Notes under the pieces: generated by a model
What the model saw: only the letters and a program-made list of their open reading frames with translations
The model's database searches: none
Told to the model about the DNA's origin: nothing
Shown here: piece by piece, positions 16,910 through 64,000 of the stretch
Layout: every line of letters begins with the position of its first letter
Numbering within the stretch: position 1 is the stretch's first letter
Made by a program: the position numbers and the translations under genes
DNA from: Oceaniglobus ichthyenteri
GTDB lineage: Bacteria; Pseudomonadota; Alphaproteobacteria; Rhodobacterales; Rhodobacteraceae
Assembly (NCBI RefSeq): GCF_003057885.1
Contig: NZ_QAGK01000003.1
Coordinates: 62,001 to 126,000 of the forward strand
Direction of reading: 5' to 3'
DNA: 64,000 nt

Positions 16910-18181
16910 GTGAGAACCGGTTTCACCCTTTCTGGCGTTGGCCATGTGGCACTGATTGGTGTCGCCCTCCTTGGTGGGTTGTTTGCGCTGAATCCGCCGC
17001 CGCCGCCCGAAGTGGCGAATGTGACGCTGTTGAGCGAAGAGGAATTTGCCGCCCTGACGCGGCCTGATGCGGGCGAAACCCCGGCACCGGCAACCGAACC
17101 CGAAGTGGAGCCAGTGCCCGAGCCAACACCGCCGGTTGAAACGCCGGCCGAGCCTGAACCGGCCCCGGCGCCCGAGCCTGAGCCCGAGCCTGAGCCGATA
17201 CCAGAACCCGAGCCTGAACCGACGCCCGCGCCAGAGCCGGAACCGACGCCAGAGCCGGAATCCGAACCCGAGCCGACGCCGGAACCCGAACCGGTGGTTG
17301 AGGCCCCCGAACCGGCCCCCGTGGCCCCCGAACCCGTGCCCGAGCCGCAAGTGGCCGCGCCCGAACCCGAACAGGTCGCACCGCCCGTGGTGACCCCGCG
17401 CCCCACCGCGCCAACAGCCACCCCGCGCCCGGCCCGCCGGATCGCAAACGAGGCAACACCGCCCCCGCCGCCCGATGCGGAAACCGCGCCTGACCCGGTG
17501 GAAACCGCCGCGCCATCCCCCGACCCAACGCCCGAGCCTGATCCGGCCCCGCCCGAACCCACCCCGGTGGAACCCGCCGCCGCACCCGAAGAAACCACGA
17601 CCGAAATCGTGACCGAGGCCGAAACCCCGACGGATGAGGCCGCCACCCCACCCGCGGCCGGCGCCCCCACCACATCGGCGCGCCCGGCCCGCCGACCAGA
17701 ACGCCCGCGTACGGCCGAAGTGTCGCGCACACCCGACGCGCCGCGCACCCCGGGGCGCACCGCCGAAGCCAGCAGCGACAGCGTTGAGGCCGCGCTGCGC
17801 GAGGCGTTGGAAGGCGCGCAGCAAGATACCACACCGGTTCAGGCCGCGCCGTCGGGCCCGCCCCTGACCTCTGGTGAAAAAGAGGCGCTTCGGGTTTCAG
17901 TGCAACAGTGTTGGAACGTCGGCTCGCTCAGCTCGGAAGCGTTGCGCACCACAGTGGTTGTGGCGATGACGATGAACCGCGACGGCACGCCGATCAACAG
18001 CACGATTCGGATGCTGGAATCGTCAGGCGGCGATGATACCGCCGCCCGTCAGGCCTATGAGGCCGCACGGCGCGCCGTCATACGCTGCGGCGCGTCGGGC
18101 TTTCCGCTGCCGCAGGAAAAGTTCGGCCAGTGGCAGAATATCGAAATGACGTTCGATCCCAGCGGGATGAGGATGCGGTGA
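16910..18181 (+). CDS. tolA: Tol-Pal system protein TolA, Pro/Glu-rich linker form
   Basis: The 423-residue protein starts at the GTG at 16910, preceded by AAGGGGCAGGG; longer upstream readings overlap tolR. Parts in order: one membrane helix near residues 5-28; a very long periplasmic linker of Pro, Glu and Ala (about 55-310) with runs of PEPEPEP; and a globular C-terminal TolA/TonB-like domain (about 325-423) beginning after CWNVGSL. The alanine/lysine helical domain II of E. coli TolA is replaced by this extended polyproline-type linker. The last 50 codons are echoed in the small downstream gene. Confidence 0.92.
17070..17390 (+). repeat. Low-complexity Pro-Glu codon repeats in tolA
   Basis: This stretch of tolA is a GC-rich low-complexity array of Pro and Glu codons (CCCGAGCC-type units) encoding PEPEP runs. 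It spans about 100 codons. Its mirror frames create long spurious Gly-rich and Arg-rich open frames on the minus strand. Such arrays can vary in length by slippage. Confidence 0.85.
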
Positions 18182-51756: not shown

Positions 51757-53229
51757 GTGCTTGTTTTTGCCCATATCGCGTATCTTTCGGTGGTCATGAT
51801 CCTTGGATCGGTCATGTCGAAAGATCTGTTGGGCGCGGCTCCGGCGGCGATAATCGGTATCGGGTTGTTGGGCACGTGGCGCTATACTTGGGGCGCAATC
51901 AACTTTAGCCGCGCCTTCTGGTTTCGCACCGTGGCCCACCCCCGGCGCAAGGCGGCGGCGCGGGCGCGGTTTGAACGCTCGGGGCATTTGTCCCATGCTT
52001 ATATGTTGATGACATCCTACATGATTGCGCCGGAAACCACGATTGTGGTGTATCGCGCCCTGTTTCAGGCCGCCGCACAGGCCCGCGATGGCGCAACGGT
52101 TGTGGCGTCGGTTGTCGATGGCGCGGACGAGCGGTTGATCCGACAGCTTTTCGAGGCATCACCAGCGGCGCGGGCGCCAGTCAAACTGATCATTGACCGG
52201 ATACCGGCCACCGGCAAGCGTGACGCGCTGGCGCGGTCCTTGCGGATTATCGCGCGGCATTATCCGACACAGCACGATGTGCTGTTGATTGCCGATGGCG
52301 ACACCACTGTGCCCCACGACATCATCGAAGAAATCGTCCCGGTTTTCAGCGACCCGAAAATCGGCGCGCTGACCACGGACGAGGCGGTGGCAATTCCCGA
52401 TCAAGGGCTGTTTCGCGATTGGTTCGAACTGCGTTTTGATCAGCGCCAGATCATGATGTGTTCGATGGGCCTGTCAAAACGTGTTCTGACCCTGACGGGC
52501 CGGATGTCGGCATTTCGCGCCAGTCTGGCCACGAACCCCGATTTCATCGAACAGGTGCAATCGGATTACATTGATCATTTGCGCCTTGGGCGGGTGAACT
52601 TTTTGACCGGGGATGATAAATCAACCTGGTTCTGGCTGTTGAAAAACGGCTATCAAATGGCCTATCTGCCCGATGTCCGGTCACAATCGGCCGAAACCCA
52701 ACCCTTGCCCACATTCTATGCCTCGGCGCGGGTGCTGACCGTGCGGTGGTTTGGCAACATGCTGCGCACCAACGGGCGGGCATTGAAACTGTCACCGCTC
52801 AGGATCGGATTTTTCACCTGGTGGTCGATTCTGGATCAGCGGGTCTCGATCTGGACCACGATTGCGGGGCCGGCCTTGGCGCTGATGGCGGCGCTGTTTT
52901 ATGATGTTGCCCTGATTGCGGCCTATGTCGCCTGGATCATGCTGACACGATATATATACGTCACGCTGATTACCGCCTTTCGCGGTCGGCTTGGCTTTCC
53001 CATTACCTTTCCGTTCCTTTTGTATTTCAGTCAGCTTTATGGCGCACTGATCAAGAGTTTTGTTCTGTTCCGTCTTGATCGGCAAAAATGGACGCGCCAA
53101 TCGACCAATGCCGTGGCCGCGCGCCAGACCACCGGCCAGCGGGTGATCGCGGCCAGTTCCATTTACATGACATGTCTTACCTTTGGCTGGCTTTTGGTCG
53201 GCCTTCTTTATCTTGCGGGCGGCCTTTGA
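51757..53229 (+). CDS. alg8: Alg8-like mannuronan synthase (GT2 family)
   Basis: The 490-residue inner-membrane glycosyltransferase closely follows Alg8, which polymerises GDP-mannuronate. It has an N-terminal membrane part, then a GT2 core. Residues seen are DGADER (121-126), ADGDTT (179-184) and the catalytic TGDDKST block (285-291). VRWFGNMLRTNGRALKL (329-345) replaces the usual QxxRW. C-terminal membrane helices follow. The start GTG at 51757 follows an in-frame stop at 51748. No GDP-mannose dehydrogenase gene is in view, so the sugar could differ. It heads the operon. Confidence 0.85.
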   Translation: MLVFAHIAYLSVVMILGSVMSKDLLGAAPAAIIGIGLLGTWRYTWGAINFSRAFWFRTVAHPRRKAAARARFERSGHLSHAYMLMTSYMIAPETTIVVYRALFQAAAQARDGATVVASVVDGADERLIRQLFEASPAARAPVKLIIDRIPATGKRDALARSLRIIARHYPTQHDVLLIADGDTTVPHDIIEEIVPVFSDPKIGALTTDEAVAIPDQGLFRDWFELRFDQRQIMMCSMGLSKRVLTLTGRMSAFRASLATNPDFIEQVQSDYIDHLRLGRVNFLTGDDKSTWFWLLKNGYQMAYLPDVRSQSAETQPLPTFYASARVLTVRWFGNMLRTNGRALKLSPLRIGFFTWWSILDQRVSIWTTIAGPALALMAALFYDVALIAAYVAWIMLTRYIYVTLITAFRGRLGFPITFPFLLYFSQLYGALIKSFVLFRLDRQKWTRQSTNAVAARQTTGQRVIAASSIYMTCLTFGWLLVGLLYLAGGL

Positions 53230-53279
53230 TTTTGGATGAGCCGACGAAAACACCATTACCACGCGAAAGCCTGAATTTT

Positions 53280-54326
53280 ATGAAACATGCCGATTTGCAG
53301 CCGCCCGACAGCGCCGTTGCCCTGCCTGCGGGGTTCGCCCACAAGGGCGAGCATCCGCAACTTGAGGTGCCGTTCACGGCATTGATCGGCACGCAAATGC
53401 TGACCGGGCGCAGCCTGTCGTTGACCAGTGCGGTCGTTTCCGGCGCAATGCCGACAGGGGTGGACGGCACCGTTGTTGCCATGGCGCTGCGGCTGAATTT
53501 TTCGGGGTTTGCGGTACTGTTGTATGTCGATGCCTGGGTCGAAAACGGCAACGAGGATGACACCTATACCCTGCATTTCACCGAACCCACGGGCGAACAT
53601 CTGGCACCGCTGCGCTATGTTCTCAACAGTTATATCGCGGGTGATATCGTGTCTTTGGGCGGCTTCATGGGCTATACCGGCCCACTGAGTGTCAAGGAAA
53701 AGGCAGCCGCCCAAACGCCCGGTTTGTCGCATAAGATCCAGAACGTGGTGCGGCGTGGCATCGTGATTGCCCTGACCGCCGGTCTGGCGCTGATTGCGCT
53801 GAACCTTGCGCATGAACGGGTGGTATTTTCCTATGAGGCGCGGCCCGTGACCGTGACCGCGCCGGGCCAGACCCTGATGGCGACGGCGGCCGGGCAATTG
53901 ACCTATGCCGATCCGAACGCCGCCAAGGGCGAGGTGGTGTATTCCATCCTGGCCAATTCGGGCGATTACCTGAGCGTTAAAATGCCCTGTGATTGCACCA
54001 TCCTGCCGATGCGCAATTTCGTTGAAGGGGCCACAATCATGACCGGCACGCCGATTGTGCGGCTGGCATCGGGTGATGCGGGGCTGGTGGCCAACACGGA
54101 AATCAGTGCCGAAGGCGCTGTGAAACTGGTGTCGGGGCAGCAGGCCGAATTGGTGTTGGCGAATGGCACCGTTGTGCCGGTCACCCCCGAAATCCTGCCA
54201 TCGCCCGATGATGGTGATCGCACGGTACGGGTGGAAATGACGTTGGATGACACAACGAACGTGGCACCGGGTCAGGTGGCGCGCCTGCGATTCCGGCGCA
54301 ATTTGTTGCCATCGTTTCTGCATTAA
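53280..54326 (+). CDS. alg44: Alg44-like co-polymerase with degenerate PilZ region
   Basis: The 348-residue protein has an N-terminal beta-rich domain (about residues 30-140) in the place of the Alg44 PilZ domain. One membrane helix lies near 160-178, followed by a periplasmic HlyD-like barrel-sandwich region (about 185-348, with GDYLSVKMPCDCTILPMR). The position, length and topology match Alg44. The c-di-GMP motifs RxxxR and (D/N)xSxxG are not visible, so control may differ. A TTG at 53232 could extend it by 16 residues. Confidence 0.75.
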   Translation: MKHADLQPPDSAVALPAGFAHKGEHPQLEVPFTALIGTQMLTGRSLSLTSAVVSGAMPTGVDGTVVAMALRLNFSGFAVLLYVDAWVENGNEDDTYTLHFTEPTGEHLAPLRYVLNSYIAGDIVSLGGFMGYTGPLSVKEKAAAQTPGLSHKIQNVVRRGIVIALTAGLALIALNLAHERVVFSYEARPVTVTAPGQTLMATAAGQLTYADPNAAKGEVVYSILANSGDYLSVKMPCDCTILPMRNFVEGATIMTGTPIVRLASGDAGLVANTEISAEGAVKLVSGQQAELVLANGTVVPVTPEILPSPDDGDRTVRVEMTLDDTTNVAPGQVARLRFRRNLLPSFLH

Positions 54327-54364: not shown

Positions 54365-55849
54365 GTGTACAGCCCGCCAAACCTGCCAGAGATCATCGCG
54401 GTTGCGTTCCGGCGCCGGATGCGTGGCGTGCTGACGGCGCTGGCGATGCTGTTGATGATCGCCCAGACAGGGGCGGCCCAACCCATCGAACCAATCCTGG
54501 CCGAGATCGAGGCGCGCTATCACACCCTGATCAAACAGACCCGCGCGATCAAGGCACCAACTGGCAAGGCCGCGGGCGCGGTTTCTGCAAAAACCACGGC
54601 ACATCTGGTCACATCCGATTTGCGCGTTGCGCTGTTGAAACTGGCGCGCACAGATGAAACCGAAGGCCGCAAAATCATTCTGGCGGCGCAGGGCGGGCGT
54701 GATCCCGTGGCTTTGTCGCTGGCCGCAGGTCAGGCCACGTTGCCCGGTCTGTTGGCCAAGGCACAGCAGTTGTTCCCGGGTGCGGTGGGCGAACACGGCC
54801 TGGGCATACCGTTGATTATCGAGCAGGGCGCGGAGCTGTTGTTGGATCAGGGCGCAGTGCTGAGTCTGAACCGGGCAGCGGGTGCGTTTGTGGTTAATTT
54901 CGGCGCACTTACCATAAATGGCGGTGGAATCATTGCCGCAGGTCCGGGCAATGATGCGGCCTCTTTTGCTCCCTTTGTCGTTACGGCAGGGCAGGGGGTG
55001 ATGGCCGCCGATAATGGCTATTTTGCCGGCCTTGGTTTTGGCGCTGATCTGACATTTGCCGGACTTTCTGTTATGATCAGTGGGCTTTACCCCACTGACC
55101 GGCCTTCGGTTTTGACGGGGTCAATCCTGCGCGATGTCGGGTCAGCGGTGTTTGTCGGCGGGGCAGGGGTTTCTATCACAAACAACCGGTTTGTTGATCC
55201 GCGCCGCACCGCGTTGATCCTGCGCGCAACACATGGGGCACAGATCGCCGACAATATATTTACCGACGGGGCGTCGGGTGATGCGATCCGTCTGGCGGCG
55301 GGGGCAACGGGCACCGATATTCGGGACAGCGAAATCTTTCAGCCCCGCGAAAGCGGCATCGCGCTGTTGGCGGGCAGTGGCGACACGGTGCTGCGCAATG
55401 TGACAATCTGGCGGCCCCGTCACAACGGTGTGCGGGCCGAACACTCGGCCTGTCTGTCGATGCGCAACCTGCAAATTCTGGGGGCGCGGCAAGAGGGCGT
55501 GACCCTGCGCGGTGTGCAGGGCGCGAAACTGGCCGACAGCGTTCTGATTGCCTCTAAACGTGCCGGGCTGTTGGTGGCCGATCTGCCCGGTGAGGTGACG
55601 ACGCAAATCACCGGCAACCGGTTTGCGATGAACCGCACCGGAATCGAAACCGCAGCGGCCGGGCATCTGGCCCTGTCGGGCAATGATTTTCAGGATCAGT
55701 TCCCGCGCTTTCTGGCCGGGGATGTGCAATTCATGACCCCGGATCTGTTGCGCGATCTGACCGGCAAAGAGCAGATCATTCTGGCCGGTGGCAGCGCGCC
55801 CGGCACCCCGACCCCCGCCCCCGTTTGCGCCCCCGATACAAAGGATTAA
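54365..55849 (+). CDS. algG: AlgG-like parallel beta-helix protein without DPHD motif
   Basis: The 494-residue periplasmic protein has a basic N-terminus with a signal segment (MRGVLTALAMLLMIAQ, near residues 19-34). A helical part follows (40-130), then a right-handed parallel beta-helix of CASH/PbH1-type repeats from about 150 to 465 (for example ITNNRFVDPRRTALILRATH). It fits AlgG, a mannuronan C5-epimerase. The catalytic DPHD motif of Pseudomonas AlgG is absent; the nearest is D278-P-R-R281. So it may be an inactive scaffold or use other residues. Start GTG at 54365 or ATG at 54419. Confidence 0.75.
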   Translation: MYSPPNLPEIIAVAFRRRMRGVLTALAMLLMIAQTGAAQPIEPILAEIEARYHTLIKQTRAIKAPTGKAAGAVSAKTTAHLVTSDLRVALLKLARTDETEGRKIILAAQGGRDPVALSLAAGQATLPGLLAKAQQLFPGAVGEHGLGIPLIIEQGAELLLDQGAVLSLNRAAGAFVVNFGALTINGGGIIAAGPGNDAASFAPFVVTAGQGVMAADNGYFAGLGFGADLTFAGLSVMISGLYPTDRPSVLTGSILRDVGSAVFVGGAGVSITNNRFVDPRRTALILRATHGAQIADNIFTDGASGDAIRLAAGATGTDIRDSEIFQPRESGIALLAGSGDTVLRNVTIWRPRHNGVRAEHSACLSMRNLQILGARQEGVTLRGVQGAKLADSVLIASKRAGLLVADLPGEVTTQITGNRFAMNRTGIETAAAGHLALSGNDFQDQFPRFLAGDVQFMTPDLLRDLTGKEQIILAGGSAPGTPTPAPVCAPDTKD

Positions 55850-55852
55850 GCC

Positions 55853-57292
55853 ATGGTGTTTTCGTCTGAATCCTTTCTGTTCCTGTTTCTGCCGCTGTTT
55901 CTGGCGCTGTATTACCTCACCCCGACGCGGACGAAATCCTATACCATTCTGGCGGGCTCATACCTGTTTTATGCCTGGTGGCGGGTTGATTTTCTGGGGC
56001 TTTTGTTCCTGACCACGGTATTTGCCTATGTGGTGGGGCAAAAGGTTTCGCGCCACCGTGGCACGGCGCGGGGCAAGGCGTGGTTGGGCATTGGCGTGGC
56101 GGGATGTCTGGGCGTTTTGGGCGTGTTCAAATACCTGAACTTTTTCTTGGATAGCTTTGCCGCGCTGGTTGGCACCGATACGGCGGGCCTTGGCATTCAT
56201 TGGCGGTTGATCCTGCCGATTGGCATTTCGTTTTATATCTTTCAGGCGCTCAGCTATCTGATTGACGTGCATCGCGGCGATGCCAAGGCCGACGCCCGGT
56301 TCATTGATTTCGCCGCCTTTATCGCACTTTTCCCACAACTGATTGCAGGGCCGATCCTGCGCTATAAGGATTTGGAGGATCAATTCAAAAGCCGCACCCA
56401 CAGCGCCGAAATGTTTGCCGATGGCATGGCGCGGTTTCTGATCGGGCTGGCCAAAAAGGTACTGTTGGCCGATGCCATCGCGCCCCTTGCCAATCTGGCC
56501 TTTGCCAATTCCGGCGATGTCGGCATGGGGTTGGTCTGGGTTGGGGTCATTGCCTATATGCTTCAGCTTTATTTCGATTTTTCGGGGTATTCCGATATGG
56601 CAATCGGGCTGGGCAAGATGATGGGGTTCAATTTCCTTGAAAACTTCCGCTTTCCCTATATCAGCCGCTCAATCACCGAATTCTGGCGGCGCTGGCATAT
56701 TTCGCTTTCAAACTGGCTGCGCGATTATCTCTATATCTCGCTTGGCGGCAACCGGCGTGGCAAACTCTGGACCTATGCCAACCTGATGACAGTGATGGTT
56801 TTGGGCGGGCTGTGGCATGGCGCGAACTGGACATTCGTTTTGTGGGGCCTGTGGCATGGCGGCATTTTGGCGGTTGAGCGGGCCACCGGCCATGATCGCC
56901 GCGCCGCCCGCCTGCCTTGGGCATTGCCGCTGACATTGCTGTGCGTGCTGATTGGTTGGGTGATGTTTCGCGCTGAAAACGTGGGCCAAGGGTTTGAGGT
57001 TTACGCCGCCATGCTGGGGGCCAACGGTTGGGTCGGCAACCCCGCCCTGTGGCTTGAGGTGACGCGCGAAAGTCTGGCGTTTACCTGTCTGGCGGTGGTG
57101 ATTTGCATTGTCGAACCCCGCGCCTGGACGCTGTTTGAGGCGCGACGCGATTTCGCCATTCGCCCCGATGGCACCGTCGCAATCCCGATGGTGCAGGGCG
57201 CGGTATCTTTGGGCCTGATCGCTTTGGGCGTGTTCACGGTGATGAAACTGGCCGAGCAAAGCTATTCCCCGTTCCTTTATTTCCACTTCTAA
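55853..57292 (+). CDS. algI: Alginate O-acetyltransferase AlgI (MBOAT)
   Basis: The 479-residue polytopic membrane protein passes acetyl groups from the cytoplasm to the periplasm. It begins MVFSSESFLFLFLPLFLALY, as AlgI does. The conserved FSGYSDMAIGLGKMMG is near residues 242-257. The catalytic His falls at residue 322 in GGLWHGANWTFVLWG, the same number as in P. aeruginosa AlgI. It starts 3 bp after algG and is followed by algJ at 11 bp. Confidence 0.93.
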   Translation: MVFSSESFLFLFLPLFLALYYLTPTRTKSYTILAGSYLFYAWWRVDFLGLLFLTTVFAYVVGQKVSRHRGTARGKAWLGIGVAGCLGVLGVFKYLNFFLDSFAALVGTDTAGLGIHWRLILPIGISFYIFQALSYLIDVHRGDAKADARFIDFAAFIALFPQLIAGPILRYKDLEDQFKSRTHSAEMFADGMARFLIGLAKKVLLADAIAPLANLAFANSGDVGMGLVWVGVIAYMLQLYFDFSGYSDMAIGLGKMMGFNFLENFRFPYISRSITEFWRRWHISLSNWLRDYLYISLGGNRRGKLWTYANLMTVMVLGGLWHGANWTFVLWGLWHGGILAVERATGHDRRAARLPWALPLTLLCVLIGWVMFRAENVGQGFEVYAAMLGANGWVGNPALWLEVTRESLAFTCLAVVICIVEPRAWTLFEARRDFAIRPDGTVAIPMVQGAVSLGLIALGVFTVMKLAEQSYSPFLYFHF

Positions 57293-57303: not shown

Positions 57304-58359
57304 ATGATGTTTCCCACTCCAAATCTGGCCCTGAAACTGACCGTACCGGTGGCGTTTTTCGGATATGCCCTGTTGGCCAATCTGTCGTTGTTCACGGCCC
57401 CGAATGCCATGCTGCCCACTGCCCAAGGGCTGTTGAACGGTCAAATAACAGCCGCCATTGATGGGCTGTATCGTGAGAACCTGCCCCACAAGGCCCCCTC
57501 AATCGGCGTGATCGGCGCGGCGCGGTATCTGCTTTTGAGCGAAGGGCGGCCCGGCGTTGTGGTGGGCCAGGCGGGGCATTTGTTTACCTCGGAAGAATAC
57601 CGCGCGGTTGATGGCGCGGTATATGGCGCAGCTTTGGCACAGGTGGCGCGGGCGGCGGCGCAATTGGACGGGTTGGGCGTGCAATTGATCGTCGCGCCGC
57701 TTCCGGCAAAGCTGGATCTGATGCGCGATTGGGCCAATGATGGCGCGGCGGCAAATGCGCTTGCGCAGCTCTATCAAACATTTCAAACCGATCTGCGCGC
57801 CAAAGGCATCAGCGTGGTTGATAGCCGCCCCGCCCTGGCCGCCAGCCCCGCGCCGTTTTTAACAACCGATACCCATTGGACACCGCAAGGCGCGCGCACC
57901 GTTGCCACCAGTATCGCCGCCAGCGGGACAGTTGCGCCGGGGTCCGATGGTTTTACCATCGAAACCGGCCGCGAAATCATCTTTGCCGGTGATTTGGTCA
58001 GCTATATCACATCCGACGCACTTGCGCCCTTTGTCGGCCTGTCGCGTGAAACCGTCACGCCCTATACCGCCGTGGCGCAGAGTGTTGAAACCGGTGTGCT
58101 TGACCTGTTTGGCGGGGATGGCGGCGGCATTGATCTGGTTGGCACATCCTATTCCGCCAACCCGAATTGGAGCTTTGCCGAGGCGCTGAAGCTGGAGCTG
58201 AGCCGCGATGTGGTGAACCATGCCGAACAGGGGCAGGGGCCATTTGCCCCCATGGCGGCATATCTTGCCACGCTTGATCCGCTGGCCCTGCCCGAGGTGG
58301 TGATTTGGGAAATTCCGGTGCGCTATCTGACCGATCCGGCGATGAAGGGGGCGGAATGA
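57304..58359 (+). CDS. algJ: AlgJ-like acetyltransferase (SGNH fold)
   Basis: The 351-residue protein has a membrane signal-anchor near residues 10-30. An SGNH-like domain follows with the acid/His pair in TTDTHWTPQGA (Asp189, His191) and a nucleophile Ser in LVGTSYSANPNW (Ser282). This is the AlgJ/AlgX catalytic set. It relays acetyl from AlgI. An ATGA overlap links it to the next gene. Confidence 0.85.
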   Translation: MMFPTPNLALKLTVPVAFFGYALLANLSLFTAPNAMLPTAQGLLNGQITAAIDGLYRENLPHKAPSIGVIGAARYLLLSEGRPGVVVGQAGHLFTSEEYRAVDGAVYGAALAQVARAAAQLDGLGVQLIVAPLPAKLDLMRDWANDGAAANALAQLYQTFQTDLRAKGISVVDSRPALAASPAPFLTTDTHWTPQGARTVATSIAASGTVAPGSDGFTIETGREIIFAGDLVSYITSDALAPFVGLSRETVTPYTAVAQSVETGVLDLFGGDGGGIDLVGTSYSANPNWSFAEALKLELSRDVVNHAEQGQGPFAPMAAYLATLDPLALPEVVIWEIPVRYLTDPAMKGAE

Positions 58360-59162
58360 AACGGCACTCTGTATACAAGCGCCTGCTGGCGGGGATGATT
58401 GCCGCAACCTTGGCCCTGCCTGTATTGGCCGATCCTGCGCCACCACTTCTTGATCTGACGCGGCTGGGCGGTTATGACGCCGAGGCGCGCAAGATTTCCG
58501 TGACCCTGACACGCGGCGTGCGCAGCGGGCGCGATTTACCCACTCAATCTCTCAGAACCACGCGCGAACGGATGGTTGACGATTTGCCCGTAACCATCGA
58601 CGCCTTGCGCGCCTTGGCCGATGCCGGCGATGGCATCGCCGCCCTGCGTTTGATTGCCCAGCTTGAGGAGGAGGGGCACAGTGCCGCACCCGAAAATCTG
58701 GCGCATTATTACGGGCTGGCCGCGTCAACCGGGCGGGTTGTCGGGCTGTTCGGGCTGGTACGCACCCTGAAACAGGTTGATCCGGCCAAGGCCGGGCCTG
58801 CGCGGTTGCGGATGCTGCAAGATATCGTGATGGCCTATGCCAAAGCAGGCAATCCGGTGGCCTCGGCGGCAATGATGGAGTTTCACCGCACCGGACACCC
58901 GTTTGGCCCGATGCCGGGCGCGATTGCAGAATTGGCCACGGCGGGGCAGGGCAAAAGCAATGCGGTGATCGCGCTGCAACTGGCGGGGGATCTGATTCAG
59001 ACTGGATGGGATGATCCGGCCGCATTGGCCCGTGCGCAAACCCATCTGCGCGCCGCCGAGACAGCGGATTCGGTGCGCATAAAGTTGATCGCGGGCAATC
59101 TTTTGCCGGTGCTTGCGGCGCGCATTCAGACCCTTTCACCGGTTGAGGAGCCAAACGGATGA
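58356..59162 (+). CDS. Small secreted helical-repeat protein in the alginate-type operon
   Basis: The 268-residue protein has a signal peptide (about residues 1-26, ending PVLA) and otherwise consists of alpha-helices with Sel1/TPR-like periodicity (ALADAGDGIAALRLIAQLEE, YYGLAASTGRVVGLFGLV). It has no exact counterpart in the Pseudomonas cluster, although it may share AlgK's scaffold role with the much larger gene at 61262. It overlaps algJ at its start and algX at its end, both by 4 bp. Confidence 0.7.
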   Translation: MKRHSVYKRLLAGMIAATLALPVLADPAPPLLDLTRLGGYDAEARKISVTLTRGVRSGRDLPTQSLRTTRERMVDDLPVTIDALRALADAGDGIAALRLIAQLEEEGHSAAPENLAHYYGLAASTGRVVGLFGLVRTLKQVDPAKAGPARLRMLQDIVMAYAKAGNPVASAAMMEFHRTGHPFGPMPGAIAELATAGQGKSNAVIALQLAGDLIQTGWDDPAALARAQTHLRAAETADSVRIKLIAGNLLPVLAARIQTLSPVEEPNG

Positions 59163-60625
59163 TTGGACGATTGCGCATTCTGGCGCTCACCGCTCTTGTG
59201 GGTCTGTCAACCACATCTGCCATGGCCGACAGCGCCTTTGGCTGTTCGGGGTTGGAAACCGATGCCGATCTGGCCACGCTTGAGGGGCACGACGGTGTGT
59301 TTTTCCGCATGGTTTCAGACCTGCGGATGGATCGCCCGTTTTCTCAGGCGACCGTTGCCAATCTGGCCGAACTGTCGCGCGCTTTGGCCGAACGGGGCAC
59401 CACATTGGTGTTCGCGCCGGTCCCGACCAAAGCGGTGACCATGCCCGATTGGCTGCCTGAACGCGCCCGCCTGATGGGGTTTGACCTGACCGTGGCAACG
59501 GAGGTGCAGCGCGATATCTTACGCCAACTTGACGCTGCCGGTGTCATCACCGTGGATCTGCGCGCCGCCATGGTTCAGGGTGGCGCGGGCCGTCACACAT
59601 TTTTCGGCACCGATACACATTGGAATGCGTTTGGTGCCGAATTGGGCGCGATGGCCGTGGCCGAGGTGCTGAAGGCACAACCGATCTATGACAGCCTGAC
59701 CAAAACCACCCATGAAACCGTTGAGATGGGTGAGAAAACGGCGTTTTCGGGTATGCGCCGGATTTTGCAACGTCGCTGTATCGAAACCCTGCCCGAACCG
59801 GTGACCATGACCTATGAAACCCGCGTCGCCAGCACCGGCGCGGCCATGGCGGGCGGCACCCTTGATATCGGGCTGAACGACGAGACATTGCTGGATATCG
59901 GGCTGGAAGACGAACCGCTGGATATCGGGCTGGACGATACGCTGCTTGATATCGGATTGGACGACACCGCGCTTGATATCGGGCTGGGCGCGGATGCGGG
60001 CGTGGCCCGCGACCCGGCCAGCCAATTGCCTGTTGCCTTGGTCGGTACGTCGTTTACCGATCTCGCGGTCAGCAATTTTCCGGGCTTTGTGGCACAACAT
60101 GCCGGGGTTGAGGTGGTGAATTACGCGATCACCGGCGGTGGTCAGTATGGCGCAATCACATCCTATCTGACGTCCGACGATTTTCAGACCGCGCCGCCCG
60201 CGTTTCTGGTGTGGGAAAACCCGATCTATGCGAATCTGGCGCAAAATGGCAGCGGCCCGATGCGCGAACTGATCGCCGCCGTGCGCGGCTGCGCACAGCC
60301 GGTGGATATCACCATCGGCGATGATCGTGCGCGCCTGACTGCCACGTTGCCACCGGATTTGGGCCCCGATCACACCCTGTTTCTGGACACCGGCACCGGG
60401 GCCATGGCCAAGGCGACGTTCCGGTTTGCCAACGCCGCCGGGCGCAACCGCACCAAAACCATTGAACGGGGCGAACGCCTGCGCCTGAACGGGCGGTTTT
60501 ACATGCCGTTGACCGGTCTGTGGCCCGGTGGCGCGCAGAGCGTTGAAATTGATTTACCTCTTCCCTTGGGTCAGGCCGCCACATTGTCTGTCTGCGCCCC
60601 CGAACCATCATTACAAAAGGATTGA
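59159..60625 (+). CDS. algX: AlgX-like acetyltransferase with LDIGL repeat insert
   Basis: The 488-residue periplasmic protein has a signal peptide (about residues 1-23). An SGNH domain carries TDTHWNAFGAE (Asp152, His154) and nucleophile Ser298 in LVGTSFTD. A beta-rich C-terminal module (about 380-480) resembles the AlgX carbohydrate-binding module. Between them, residues 235-276 hold five LDIGL words separated by acidic spacers, just before the catalytic Ser. This insert is not part of the AlgX family as I know it. It overlaps the previous gene by 4 bp. Confidence 0.82.
   Translation: MIGRLRILALTALVGLSTTSAMADSAFGCSGLETDADLATLEGHDGVFFRMVSDLRMDRPFSQATVANLAELSRALAERGTTLVFAPVPTKAVTMPDWLPERARLMGFDLTVATEVQRDILRQLDAAGVITVDLRAAMVQGGAGRHTFFGTDTHWNAFGAELGAMAVAEVLKAQPIYDSLTKTTHETVEMGEKTAFSGMRRILQRRCIETLPEPVTMTYETRVASTGAAMAGGTLDIGLNDETLLDIGLEDEPLDIGLDDTLLDIGLDDTALDIGLGADAGVARDPASQLPVALVGTSFTDLAVSNFPGFVAQHAGVEVVNYAITGGGQYGAITSYLTSDDFQTAPPAFLVWENPIYANLAQNGSGPMRELIAAVRGCAQPVDITIGDDRARLTATLPPDLGPDHTLFLDTGTGAMAKATFRFANAAGRNRTKTIERGERLRLNGRFYMPLTGLWPGGAQSVEIDLPLPLGQAATLSVCAPEPSLQKD
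59861..59986 (+). repeat. Five tandem LDIGL repeats in algX
   Basis: The 15-base words encoding LDIGL begin at 59861, 59891, 59918, 59945 and 59972, with periods of 30, 27, 27 and 27 bp. The spacers are acidic (NDET, EDEP, DDT). CTT/CTG and GGG/GGA variants show some drift, so the array is not brand new. The reading frame stays open. Confidence 0.9.
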
Positions 60626-60628
60626 ACC

Positions 60629-61258
60629 ATGTTCGACAGACGCCGTTTTCTGGCCCTCGGCCTTGCCACACTGATCCCGACCACAACGTCCGCCGCGGGC
60701 GATGCGGGCCTGTATCAGGATGTGTTTGATCCACAATCCAGCTTTATCCGCGTTCTTGCCCCCGGTCAGGGCTTTGCCACCGTGGCCGGCACCCGGCTGA
60801 GCGATTTTGAGGCCGGCCTGTCGCCCTATGTCAACGTGATGCCCGGCAGCGTGGCCATAACCCATGCGGGCGGCACCACCGACCTGACTGTGGCGCCCAG
60901 CAGCCATTACACCATCGTGTTGCAAACCGGTGCCGATCCGGTGGTGTTGGTCGATGATCTGGCGATGAACCCGGCCAAGGCGGATGTGTCGTTATATAAC
61001 CTCAGCATGCGCGACGGGGTTGATTTGTTCGTGCCCGCCGCGCGCGCTGTGGCGTTGCAGGGCGTGCCGCTGTCGGGGGCAAAATCGGTCGCGCTGAAGG
61101 CGCCTCTGACGCTTGATTTCGAACTGCGCGTCGGTGACGAAACCCTGGCCACCGTCGGCGCGGTGGCATTGCAGCGTCGCGCCGGCGTGTCGGTCGTATT
61201 GACCGGGGCCGACAGCCAATTCACCGCCGTCGCGGTGCCAAACACCTATCAAAGGTAA
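60629..61258 (+). CDS. algF: AlgF-like alginate O-acetylation adaptor
   Basis: The 209-residue protein has a signal peptide with a twin-arginine-like start (DRRRFLALGLA) ending near residue 22. It then has a two-part beta-sandwich. The N-terminal half (GLYQDVFDPQSSFIRVLAPG) resembles AlgF. AlgF has no enzymatic motif; in Pseudomonas it bridges AlgJ/AlgX during acetylation. It lies 3 bp after algX. Confidence 0.78.
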   Translation: MFDRRRFLALGLATLIPTTTSAAGDAGLYQDVFDPQSSFIRVLAPGQGFATVAGTRLSDFEAGLSPYVNVMPGSVAITHAGGTTDLTVAPSSHYTIVLQTGADPVVLVDDLAMNPAKADVSLYNLSMRDGVDLFVPAARAVALQGVPLSGAKSVALKAPLTLDFELRVGDETLATVGAVALQRRAGVSVVLTGADSQFTAVAVPNTYQR

Positions 61259-61261
61259 CCA

Positions 61262-64000
61262 ATGATGCCCGAAGGCCACATTCAATCGCCCCCAAACCGG
61301 CGGCTGTCGGGCCTTCGGTGTGTTCTGGTGGCATGTTTCGCGCTGGGCAGTCCGGTTCAGGCGCAAGACACGCTGGATCTGCAATTCCGCCCCCCCGCGA
61401 TCACGCCGGGGCCGATTTGCGAATCCCCCCCCACCGATGATGAAACCACCGATTTTTGGGGCGATTGGGATCAACGGGTTCTGCCCGACCGCCCGATGCG
61501 CAGCATTCGGCGTGATATGAACCGGCTGGTTCAGATCGACGGCGCGCGCTGGTTCGATACGGTGACGCGCGCAATGGATCTGTTGGAAAAATCCGATCCG
61601 GTGTTTGAGGGCGAAACCGCTTTGGTCATGCGCATTGCCGTGTTGGACGGTGCGGGCAAATTCGAAGACCTGACCACAAGCGGCCTTGTCGCACAGTTGG
61701 CCGCGCAGATCGATGACTTGAAACCGGCGTCAAAACTGGTGCTGTCGCGGTATCTGCGTAACGGGATCGGTATTGCCGCCGATTCCGCCATGGCCGACCG
61801 GTTGTTGGTTGATGCGGGTTATGCCGGCGATCCCAAGGCGCTGCTGGCGCTGGCCGCGCTGCAACTGGCCGGGAAGGCCCCTGCCGACTGGTCGGTTCCG
61901 GCAGAATTGGCCGTAGCCACCGCGTTCAGCACCATGGTGGGCGAGTTGGACCCACAGATTTGCGACCGCGCCACCCGGATCGCCACCCAATTTCGGTTGG
62001 GCGGCGTCGTCACGCCCGATCCGCAGCTGGCCCATGATTGGTATCGCTTTACCGCCGATCTGGGCAGTGGCCATGCGGCATGGAAGGTGGTCGAATACCA
62101 CATGCGTGCCGAACAGTTTGAAAAAACCAACGATCTGCTGCTGCGCTATCTCGAAATGGCTGCGTCGGCCGATCTGTCTTATGCACAGATCGAACTGGCC
62201 CGGGTGTTGGAACGCGGCGCCCTGGCCCCCCGAAACATCGACCGCGCCTATGCCCTGTACGAGGCGGCGTCGCGCTCGGGCGATCTGCGCGGTTTGTCGC
62301 AATTTGCCCTGTTTTTGCGCCGCCATGAACCTGCCGATCCGACAGTGCGCGCGCCACGCGTTACGGTGTTGCAAAAGCTTACCGCGCGCAACGACGCGCC
62401 GGGCTGGGCGTTTTCGCAACTGGCTGAAACAACGCTGGAAGATCGCGGCGTCTGGGCCGGTGCGGGCGATGCGCGCCCCCTGTTGGAACAGGCGGTCAAA
62501 CGCGGCAATCTTGATGGCCATGTGATGTTGGCGCAACTGATCCTGGCCAACAGCCCCAACGCGGCAAATATCGATCGGGCCGTTGATTTGTTGGCCCATG
62601 TGGTAAATGAACGGGGTGGATCACAGCCGATGAAGATGATCCGCGCCGCCCATGTGTGCCGTGCCAACGGCGCGCCAGATCGCGCCGCGGCCCAGTATTG
62701 GCTGGCTGAAGAGCAGGCCATCGGCGTATCGGATTCCGATGATCATTCCAGCCCTTTGTTAAGCCTGACCATCGCTGACAATGCCCCCCGGCTTGCCGAA
62801 ATACAGTCTTTCGCGCTCAGCGGATCACCGAACGGATTGGCAATGTGGCGCCGCGTGATCAAGGCCGCACCGTTCGCCGATGAGGCGATGCGCAATTTCT
62901 GGGCCAACTACTTTGACCAGACCGATGCGCGCCTGGTCGCCCAGGCCAAGCTGGACCTGACCCTGACCCGCGATCCGGGCGTTCACGCGGTGATCTTTGC
63001 CGCCTTGCGCGAACGGCACGCGACCTCGGGCCCCAATTTCGCCGGTTGGCTGAACGACACCTTGGTGAGCGGCATGTATGGCCCCGAAATACTGGCACAG
63101 CTCAGCACCGAGGCCCGCACCGCCGCCACGATTGAGCTGACCCGCTCGTCTGCGATGGGGTATGGGCGGGCGATGATCGGTCTGGCCGCTCTGGCCAACA
63201 CCCCCGCCGACCGGAGCGCGATATTTGATCGGTTTCGCGCCGTGATTGACGCCAATGGCGATTACGCCGCGCAACTGTTTGCCGCCCGCCATGGCGACCG
63301 GCCCGGGTATTACGCAGCCCGCGCCGCCGGGATCATGCCCTGTTCGTTTCGCAGTGCCATGGAAATGGCCGCGCTGGGCGGCGATTTGGGCAATACTGCG
63401 CAGGAAGACCACTGGCTTGCGGTGGCTGATGTTCTGGCGCCAGAGCGGACATCCTGGATGATCGCCTTGGCGCGCGCCTATTTGCGCGGTGGCAAGGCTG
63501 AAATGGGCCCCCGTGCAATGGATTTGCTGACCGAGGCCAGCGCACAGGGCGATATCAACGCCGATGTCGAGATCTTTCGCCTGATCGTGACACCCGGCGG
63601 GCCGTCTTACGATCCTGATCGCGCGGCGCGGATAATTGCATCGGCGCTGGAGGGTGGGCAAATGACGGTGCTGTCGCGCTATCTGTCGGCCCACCGCAAC
63701 GCGGATCAGGCCACGCGCACCCGGATCGAAGCGCTGTTGGACATGCCGATGATCTATCGCAGTGCCGCCGAGGCGGGCGATGCGGTGGCGATGCGCATAC
63801 ATGGTCTGGTCTTGCGCGAACAGGCGGCAGGTGCGGCAGATCTGACCGCCGCCATGGGCTGGCTGGCCCGCGCCGCCAAGGCGGGCGATACCACCGCCAT
63901 GACCGAACTGGGCGAGGCACTGGCCTTTGGCATCGGTTTGCCGGCGGATCGCGACCGCGCGTTGATCTGGCTGACCCGCGCCGCAGAACAGGGCAGCGAC
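61262..64000 (+). CDS. Very long Sel1-repeat protein, AlgK-like (cut by window end)
   Basis: The frame is open from the ATG at 61262 through the end of the window (913 codons, no stop), so the protein is larger. It has a signal peptide (about residues 15-36, ending PVQAQ), a short acidic start and then helical Sel1-like repeats throughout (for example AMGWLARAAKAGDTTAMTEL and RALIWLTRAAEQG near the end). AlgK, a Sel1 lipoprotein of about 475 residues, guides polymer to the AlgE pore; this protein is about twice as long and has no lipobox. It is the likely periplasmic scaffold. It starts 3 bp after algF. Confidence 0.78.
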   Translation, partial: MMPEGHIQSPPNRRLSGLRCVLVACFALGSPVQAQDTLDLQFRPPAITPGPICESPPTDDETTDFWGDWDQRVLPDRPMRSIRRDMNRLVQIDGARWFDTVTRAMDLLEKSDPVFEGETALVMRIAVLDGAGKFEDLTTSGLVAQLAAQIDDLKPASKLVLSRYLRNGIGIAADSAMADRLLVDAGYAGDPKALLALAALQLAGKAPADWSVPAELAVATAFSTMVGELDPQICDRATRIATQFRLGGVVTPDPQLAHDWYRFTADLGSGHAAWKVVEYHMRAEQFEKTNDLLLRYLEMAASADLSYAQIELARVLERGALAPRNIDRAYALYEAASRSGDLRGLSQFALFLRRHEPADPTVRAPRVTVLQKLTARNDAPGWAFSQLAETTLEDRGVWAGAGDARPLLEQAVKRGNLDGHVMLAQLILANSPNAANIDRAVDLLAHVVNERGGSQPMKMIRAAHVCRANGAPDRAAAQYWLAEEQAIGVSDSDDHSSPLLSLTIADNAPRLAEIQSFALSGSPNGLAMWRRVIKAAPFADEAMRNFWANYFDQTDARLVAQAKLDLTLTRDPGVHAVIFAALRERHATSGPNFAGWLNDTLVSGMYGPEILAQLSTEARTAATIELTRSSAMGYGRAMIGLAALANTPADRSAIFDRFRAVIDANGDYAAQLFAARHGDRPGYYAARAAGIMPCSFRSAMEMAALGGDLGNTAQEDHWLAVADVLAPERTSWMIALARAYLRGGKAEMGPRAMDLLTEASAQGDINADVEIFRLIVTPGGPSYDPDRAARIIASALEGGQMTVLSRYLSAHRNADQATRTRIEALLDMPMIYRSAAEAGDAVAMRIHGLVLREQAAGAADLTAAMGWLARAAKAGDTTAMTELGEALAFGIGLPADRDRALIWLTRAAEQGSD

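Follow-up and report, generated by a model that had tools for sequence, protein, structure and literature searches.

The closest described counterparts of the system considered here are the alginate O-acetylation proteins of Pseudomonas. How these hand the acetyl group from the membrane protein via AlgJ on to AlgX is unsolved, and the interactions that have been published are weak. AlgF binds both AlgX and AlgJ, weakly and with micromolar affinity, and a role in coordinating the acetyl relay has been proposed for it (PMC10641220). SGNH proteins of the PatB type act together with an MBOAT protein (PMC12148441). We analysed a stretch of 64,000 nucleotides from Oceaniglobus ichthyenteri, hereafter the window, which contains an alginate-type gene cluster with an algX-like gene whose product carries five copies of the word LDIGL. 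With a probability of about 0.9, we interpret this repeat as a lineage-specific tandem expansion of a common L-D-[I/L]-F-G word on an acidic, predicted-disordered loop, the extra copies having changed from F-G to G-L.

An alginate-type gene cluster

The algX-like gene (59159..60625, plus strand, as are all features whose coordinates are given below with two dots) encodes a 488-aa SGNH O-acetyltransferase homologue with a C-terminal carbohydrate-binding-type domain. It matches the Pfam family PF16822 ALGX (5.7e-46) with a score of 157.8 bits against a cut-off of 26.5, and the closest sequences in the PDB are P. aeruginosa AlgX 4KNC (5.4e-23), P. putida AlgX 7ULA, and AlgJ 4O8V. AlgX-like matches at an E-value of 1e-20 were found in 31 of 394 genomes of the family. 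A single-protein query against genome contigs returned zero matches; an alignment query then yielded 149 relatives from an alignment-based scan of species genomes. The AlgX set used throughout comprises 81 sequences, the window protein and the best 80 of these 149, and counts out of 81 therefore describe the nearest relatives rather than the whole family. Genome searches gave 15 serine-bearing AlgX proteins, 13 of which were aligned, with one shortened frame (G212) and one partial sequence (G188) left out.

Residues D152, H154, W155 and S298 are invariant in the alignment of 81 sequences, and the nucleophile motif Gly296-Thr-Ser298 (60044..60052) reads GTS in 81/81 homologues, by which Ser298 is the nucleophile position, as the preliminary description of this DNA had presumed. 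The Pfam match, the Asp-x-His-Trp and Ser residues, the two-domain fold and an operon with AlgI, AlgJ and AlgF all place the protein in the AlgX family, where it had first been put; by homology it would be an O-acetyltransferase, putatively one that acts on mannuronate.

Upstream of algX lie a family 2 glycosyltransferase (GT2 synthase) in an Alg8-like position (51757..53229; PF13641 8.9e-29), an AlgG-like right-handed beta-helix protein (54365..55849; NosD/Beta_helix), an AlgI-like MBOAT protein (55853..57292; PF03062 1.5e-30), which was the sole MBOAT found in a search of the source genome, and an AlgJ-like SGNH protein with one LDLFG word ahead of its GTS (57304..58359; PF16822 8.6e-54; best PDB match AlgJ 4o8v, 3.3e-37). 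A small protein ending at 59162 lies between the AlgJ-like gene and algX. Downstream are an AlgF-like protein (60629..61258; PF11182 5.5e-8, 32.9 bits, slightly below the curated cut-off of 34.4) and a Sel1-repeat protein in an AlgK-type position that runs off the window (61262..64000; PF08238). The names Alg8, AlgG and AlgK combine family and position with the operon order in Pseudomonas. A 412-aa open reading frame at 53088-54326, flanked by the genes for the GT2 synthase and the beta-helix protein, has no Pfam match and occupies an Alg44-like position. When 80 related loci were searched with tblastn, AlgF-like and Sel1 proteins were each found at 79, AlgI and AlgJ-like proteins each at 78, and the beta-helix protein at 74.

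The same genome encodes a second AlgX-like protein (G000:C33:266800-268130; L076:2810-4129) whose motif reads GTE, Glu replacing the catalytic Ser. Genes for a beta-helix protein and a Sel1 protein flank it, and from its sequence the locus looks like a non-acetylating sister cluster. AlgX-like proteins without the nucleophile form a subfamily within this bacterial family, with Glu, Asp, Lys or Ala in place of Ser (13 classified rows; e.g. L045, L055-L058, L063-L071), and perhaps have a scaffold role. One of them, L067 (G126), has gained independently a Gly/Asn/Phe-rich repeat of the GFNQGN type in the linker discussed below.

The LDIGL repeat

The five LDIGL words span residues 235-276 (59861-59986) and start at residues 235 (word 1, 59861..59875, residues 235-239), 245 (word 2, 59891..59905, 245-249), 254 (word 3, 59918..59932, 254-258), 263 (word 4, 59945..59959, 263-267) and 272 (word 5, 59972..59986, 272-276). 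At the site aligned with word 5, relatives show LDIFG. Spacing from word to word is 30, 27, 27 and 27 bp, so the 27-bp period given in the preliminary description holds for the last three steps and not for the first, and the last word ends 22 residues ahead of Ser298, in agreement with its estimate of about 20. Tandem Repeats Finder reported 59857-59987 with a period of 27 and 4.7 copies (score 116) and with a period of 54 (score 142), the latter being the top score among 42 rows for the 64-kb window. A degenerate LDIGL pattern has six matches in the window, five of them within the repeat, where shuffled sequences lead one to expect 0.11, and none of 100 shuffles had six or more; the five words originally noticed are thus real. 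Elsewhere in the window, 17170-17294 holds tandem repeats of GAGCCNGA-like units with a period of 18-24 bp.

The words sit in a variable acidic linker that the 81-homologue alignment delimits between conserved Cys207 and the nucleophile Gly-Thr-Ser (residues 208-295; 59780..60043). In the window protein this linker has 19 acidic and 2 basic residues, for a net charge of -17, and the repeat unit is about 9 residues long, its Asp regularly placed. A scan of the source genome found the tandem LDIGL pattern nowhere besides the window algX, and among the 394 family genomes it occurred in three: the source genome and G374, in both cases in algX, and G124, where in our translation the match reads LDIGLASDGAFDIGF. 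In the open PMC literature we recognised no paper on the LDIGL or D-x-F-G word or on the repeat. The preliminary description had considered an assembly error in the event that close homologues lacked the region; this is unlikely, because the frame is open and one to four LDIGL words are present at this site in the records of several relatives.

A common word multiplied

Linkers between Cys207 and GTS range from 38 to 92 aa (median 41) in the 81 homologues, with 88 aa in the window, and are net negative in 79/81. In 77 of the 81 the linker contains a short word of the form [DE][ILVT]F[GAS], mostly LDIFG or LDLFG; the four without it are three proteins with GIFA and the window's own. The repeat had initially been described as an unusual insert, but a word that is nearly universal at this site has been multiplied rather than inserted. 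A novel foreign insert is ruled out, given that among the 81 the site always has a linker and nearly always the word.

Nor is the glycine-type word, D[IL]G[LQ], unique to the source genome, as at least one copy is present in 9 of the 81 proteins. There is one copy in L087, L100 and L131, two in L081, three in L082 and L083, four in L085 and L104 (one L104 copy being DLGQ), and five in the window. Within one roseobacter group these form a graded series at one site, from one copy in Loktanella through two in Tropicibacter, three in Jannaschia and Rhodobacteraceae CCMM004 and four in Maritimibacter to five in the window. The other eight proteins all retain the Phe form, which only the window protein has lost. 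In the Tabrizicola group, seven of the 81 (L107, L126, L132, L140-L142, L144) have two Phe-type words, DIFA followed by LDIFG, which is another way of arriving at a linker with several words; with the glycine-type copies, these double words imply that the site tends toward word duplication in more than one lineage.

The AlgJ-like neighbour shares the word, which is present in 65 of the 73 proteins that could be classified out of 78 hits. The LDIGL form was found in none of the 73. The five hits left unclassified by the script were four from Devosia, which have DIFG by eye, and L086, in which the reading frame changes.

Predicted structure of the loop

An AlphaFold2 model of the window AlgX, built with the 81-row alignment, has a mean pLDDT of 86.6, with residues 243-282 falling below 50. 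This segment lies between a strand at 215-223 and a strand at 292-295 that runs into Ser298, and is thus predicted to be a disordered loop beside the active site of an AlgX fold. The placement of the repeat next to the active site agrees with the preliminary description, while the turn-rich structured surface it had anticipated gives way to disorder in the model. A conserved word (77/81) within a segment of pLDDT below 50 is the arrangement expected of a short linear motif. The model matches 4knc_A with Z 38.7 and an rmsd of 3.1 over 389 residues (aligned 25-482), and 4o8v_A with Z 28.5 over 266 residues; for residues 371-484 there is a further match to CBM32-type chains (Z about 6), which may reflect no more than a common arrangement. 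For the CCMM004 AlgX, which has three LDIGL words and one LDIFG, a model built on 57 of the 81 AlgX rows placed residues 252-267 below pLDDT 50, so that LDIFG, at 265-269, lies at the edge where order resumes.

In the AlgJ crystal structure, residues A266-K278 (13 residues) are unbuilt in both molecules, as reported with the structure (PMC4148444). These residues read AEGDAGDALFADK and fall on the loop equivalent to the AlgX linker by our own count, anchored on Ser288, rather than by a statement of that paper.

History of the copies

A quick maximum-likelihood tree of AlgX, calculated with the linker columns excluded, grouped the window with CCMM004 and Jannaschia pagri in a starred clade with support 100, which Tropicibacter, Loktanella and Alloyangia join at 95. 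On this tree the presence of the glycine-type word needs five changes and the double Phe-type word two, counts that are rough because long branches were flagged. Same-residue codons of the window's five units agree in 40 of 57 comparisons, where local codon use would predict 26.6 (simulated P 0.010), an excess that suggests that some of the copies are recent.

Two Maritimibacter species have AlgX proteins with 92 % identity over 490 aa. Their 25 word codons differ by nine synonymous substitutions and one non-synonymous; for the 56 linker codons that flank the words, the corresponding numbers are 22 and 8. These small counts lie in the direction of protein-level constraint on the words. Three strains of Loktanella salsilacus have equal copy numbers, with one glycine-type and one Phe-type position each, and in one strain the words are slightly degenerate (LDIGV, PDIFG). 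Copy number therefore varies between species and genera, and the strain-level slippage raised in the preliminary description left no sign among these three strains. In the annotation of the L. salsilacus AlgX genes (L165 660-1847, L166 660-1847) the start lies some 160 bases into the homologous frame, which matches from 501, so the N-terminus is probably lacking from the annotated proteins.

Possible roles of the repeated word

Taken as a whole, the observations are explained best, we think with about an even chance of being right, by word expansion on a mobile acidic loop that serves docking in the acetyl relay. Somewhat short of even is the functional part of this reading, in which the loop words would dock onto, or tether, a member of the acetyl-relay and export complex (AlgI/J/F/X/K). 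AlgX and AlgJ have the word in common, each on a mobile loop next to its nucleophile, which is why a common contact is suggested. With more copies and a longer tether, the local motif concentration and the reach of the loop would increase while the enzyme core stayed unchanged. AlgF would be the most plausible partner, although we regard this particular assignment as doubtful. Complementarity of net charge between linker and AlgF had the wrong sign across 79 loci (rho +0.37), and within the clade it gave rho -0.39 (p 0.083, 21 loci).

Paralogues without the catalytic serine bear on the partner as well. A word of the form [ST][ILV]F[GASN] is kept in 9 of the 13 that were classified, including the second copy of the source genome (7 of 34 rows in this survey were unclassified), and a search of that genome found no MBOAT or AlgF match outside the window cluster. 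Because the paralogue keeps the hydrophobic-Phe part without a second MBOAT or AlgF, that part cannot depend on AlgF alone. To judge from these sequences, the hydrophobic-Phe part may serve the fold or another partner, and the acidic residue may go with the acetylating forms. In the window the words keep the acidic residue and drop the Phe, so that a dock dependent on Phe would be lost or altered.

The alternative we take most seriously, though we consider it somewhat unlikely, is neutral expansion, in which slippage or unequal recombination has added copies to a permissive disordered loop with no effect beyond its greater length. The 38 to 92 aa range of linker lengths would be expected, as would the other repeats and low complexity seen at the same place in paralogues (the GFNQGN type of L067, an Ala/Pro-rich linker in L046), the codon sharing among the window copies, which fits recent duplication, and the five changes that glycine-type presence needs on the quick tree. 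It accounts less well for words that stay intact despite synonymous drift between the two Maritimibacter species, for the recurrence across genera of the same LDIGL form rather than arbitrary sequence, and for the equal copy number of the three L. salsilacus strains. Docking or tethering is for us modestly favoured over it.

Improbable, in our judgement, is a gate that mimics a polyanion, the negative loop competing with alginate for an electropositive groove until displaced by substrate or partner. The net charge of -17 and the negative linkers of 79/81 homologues would suit such a gate, as would a loop that joins the nucleophile strand in the AlphaFold2 model and the deep electropositive groove for anionic polymer of P. 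aeruginosa AlgX, yet the AlgJ-like protein has the same word and the groove of AlgJ is electronegative; AlgJ, unlike AlgX, showed no interaction with mannuronic acid oligomers, which also counts against a gate (grooves and oligomers as described in PMC4148444). Charge by itself, moreover, leaves the conservation of the L-D-I pattern unexplained. Least probable by a wide measure is the suggestion in the preliminary description that the acidic repeat binds calcium, taken here as folding on Ca2+ into a structured module. Regular Asp residues in a unit of about nine are compatible with this, and many of the relatives belong to marine genera, but no similar Pfam repeat or PDB sequence was found, so that no known calcium-binding repeat family of the RTX or dockerin type, nor any other repeat family, could be recognised; the linker alone, compared with Pfam at E up to 10, gave just an unrelated hit (E 1.1), and the Maritimibacter linker gave none. 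RTX repeats have a Gly-rich nonapeptide signature, which on inspection is missing here, and the loop is disordered in the model, although ions are not represented in AlphaFold2.

Returning to docking, a bolder version that we find rather unlikely would treat D-[IL]-F-G of AlgX and AlgJ as an unrecognised docking motif of MBOAT acetyl relays, made multivalent by roseobacters, with copy number tuning the hand-over. If this were so, AlgX would hold several low-affinity contacts at once and the window would represent a lineage shifted wholly to the Gly-Leu form. Present near the nucleophile of AlgX and of AlgJ, in a mobile loop, the word is a concrete candidate for a contact in the relay, and nature supplies ready-made variants for contact tests, with 0 to 5 extra copies. 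If the repeats are neutral, they are merely a curiosity of loop evolution.

Comparison with known systems

The AlgX proteins of P. aeruginosa and P. putida (4KNC, 7ULA) share the fold of the window protein over 389 and 402 residues (Z 38.7 and 35.7), the catalytic D-x-H-W and GTS, a DLFG directly ahead of the nucleophile, and the operon partners AlgI, AlgJ and AlgF. They differ in having that single DLFG in a short linker with no LDIGL repeats, in line with the preliminary description, which knew of no such insert in Pseudomonas AlgX, and are 20-23 % identical to the window protein. PatB-type partners of MBOAT proteins resemble AlgX in their SGNH fold, and Bacillus PatB1 (5v8d) is a distant match (Z 15.7); its profile match ends ahead of the linker, hence the word falls outside the compared region. 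AlgJ (4O8V) and the AlgJ-like neighbour have the SGNH core and a single word, LFA or LDLFG, at the same loop position, the equivalent loop being unbuilt in the 4O8V crystal by our count, but they are without the C-terminal AlgX domain and the LDIGL expansion (0/73). The nearest counterparts are the AlgX proteins of Maritimibacter, Jannaschia pagri, CCMM004, Tropicibacter and Loktanella, which have LDIGL-type copies at the same site within the same gene order and differ from the window protein in having 1-4 copies and in retaining the Phe form.
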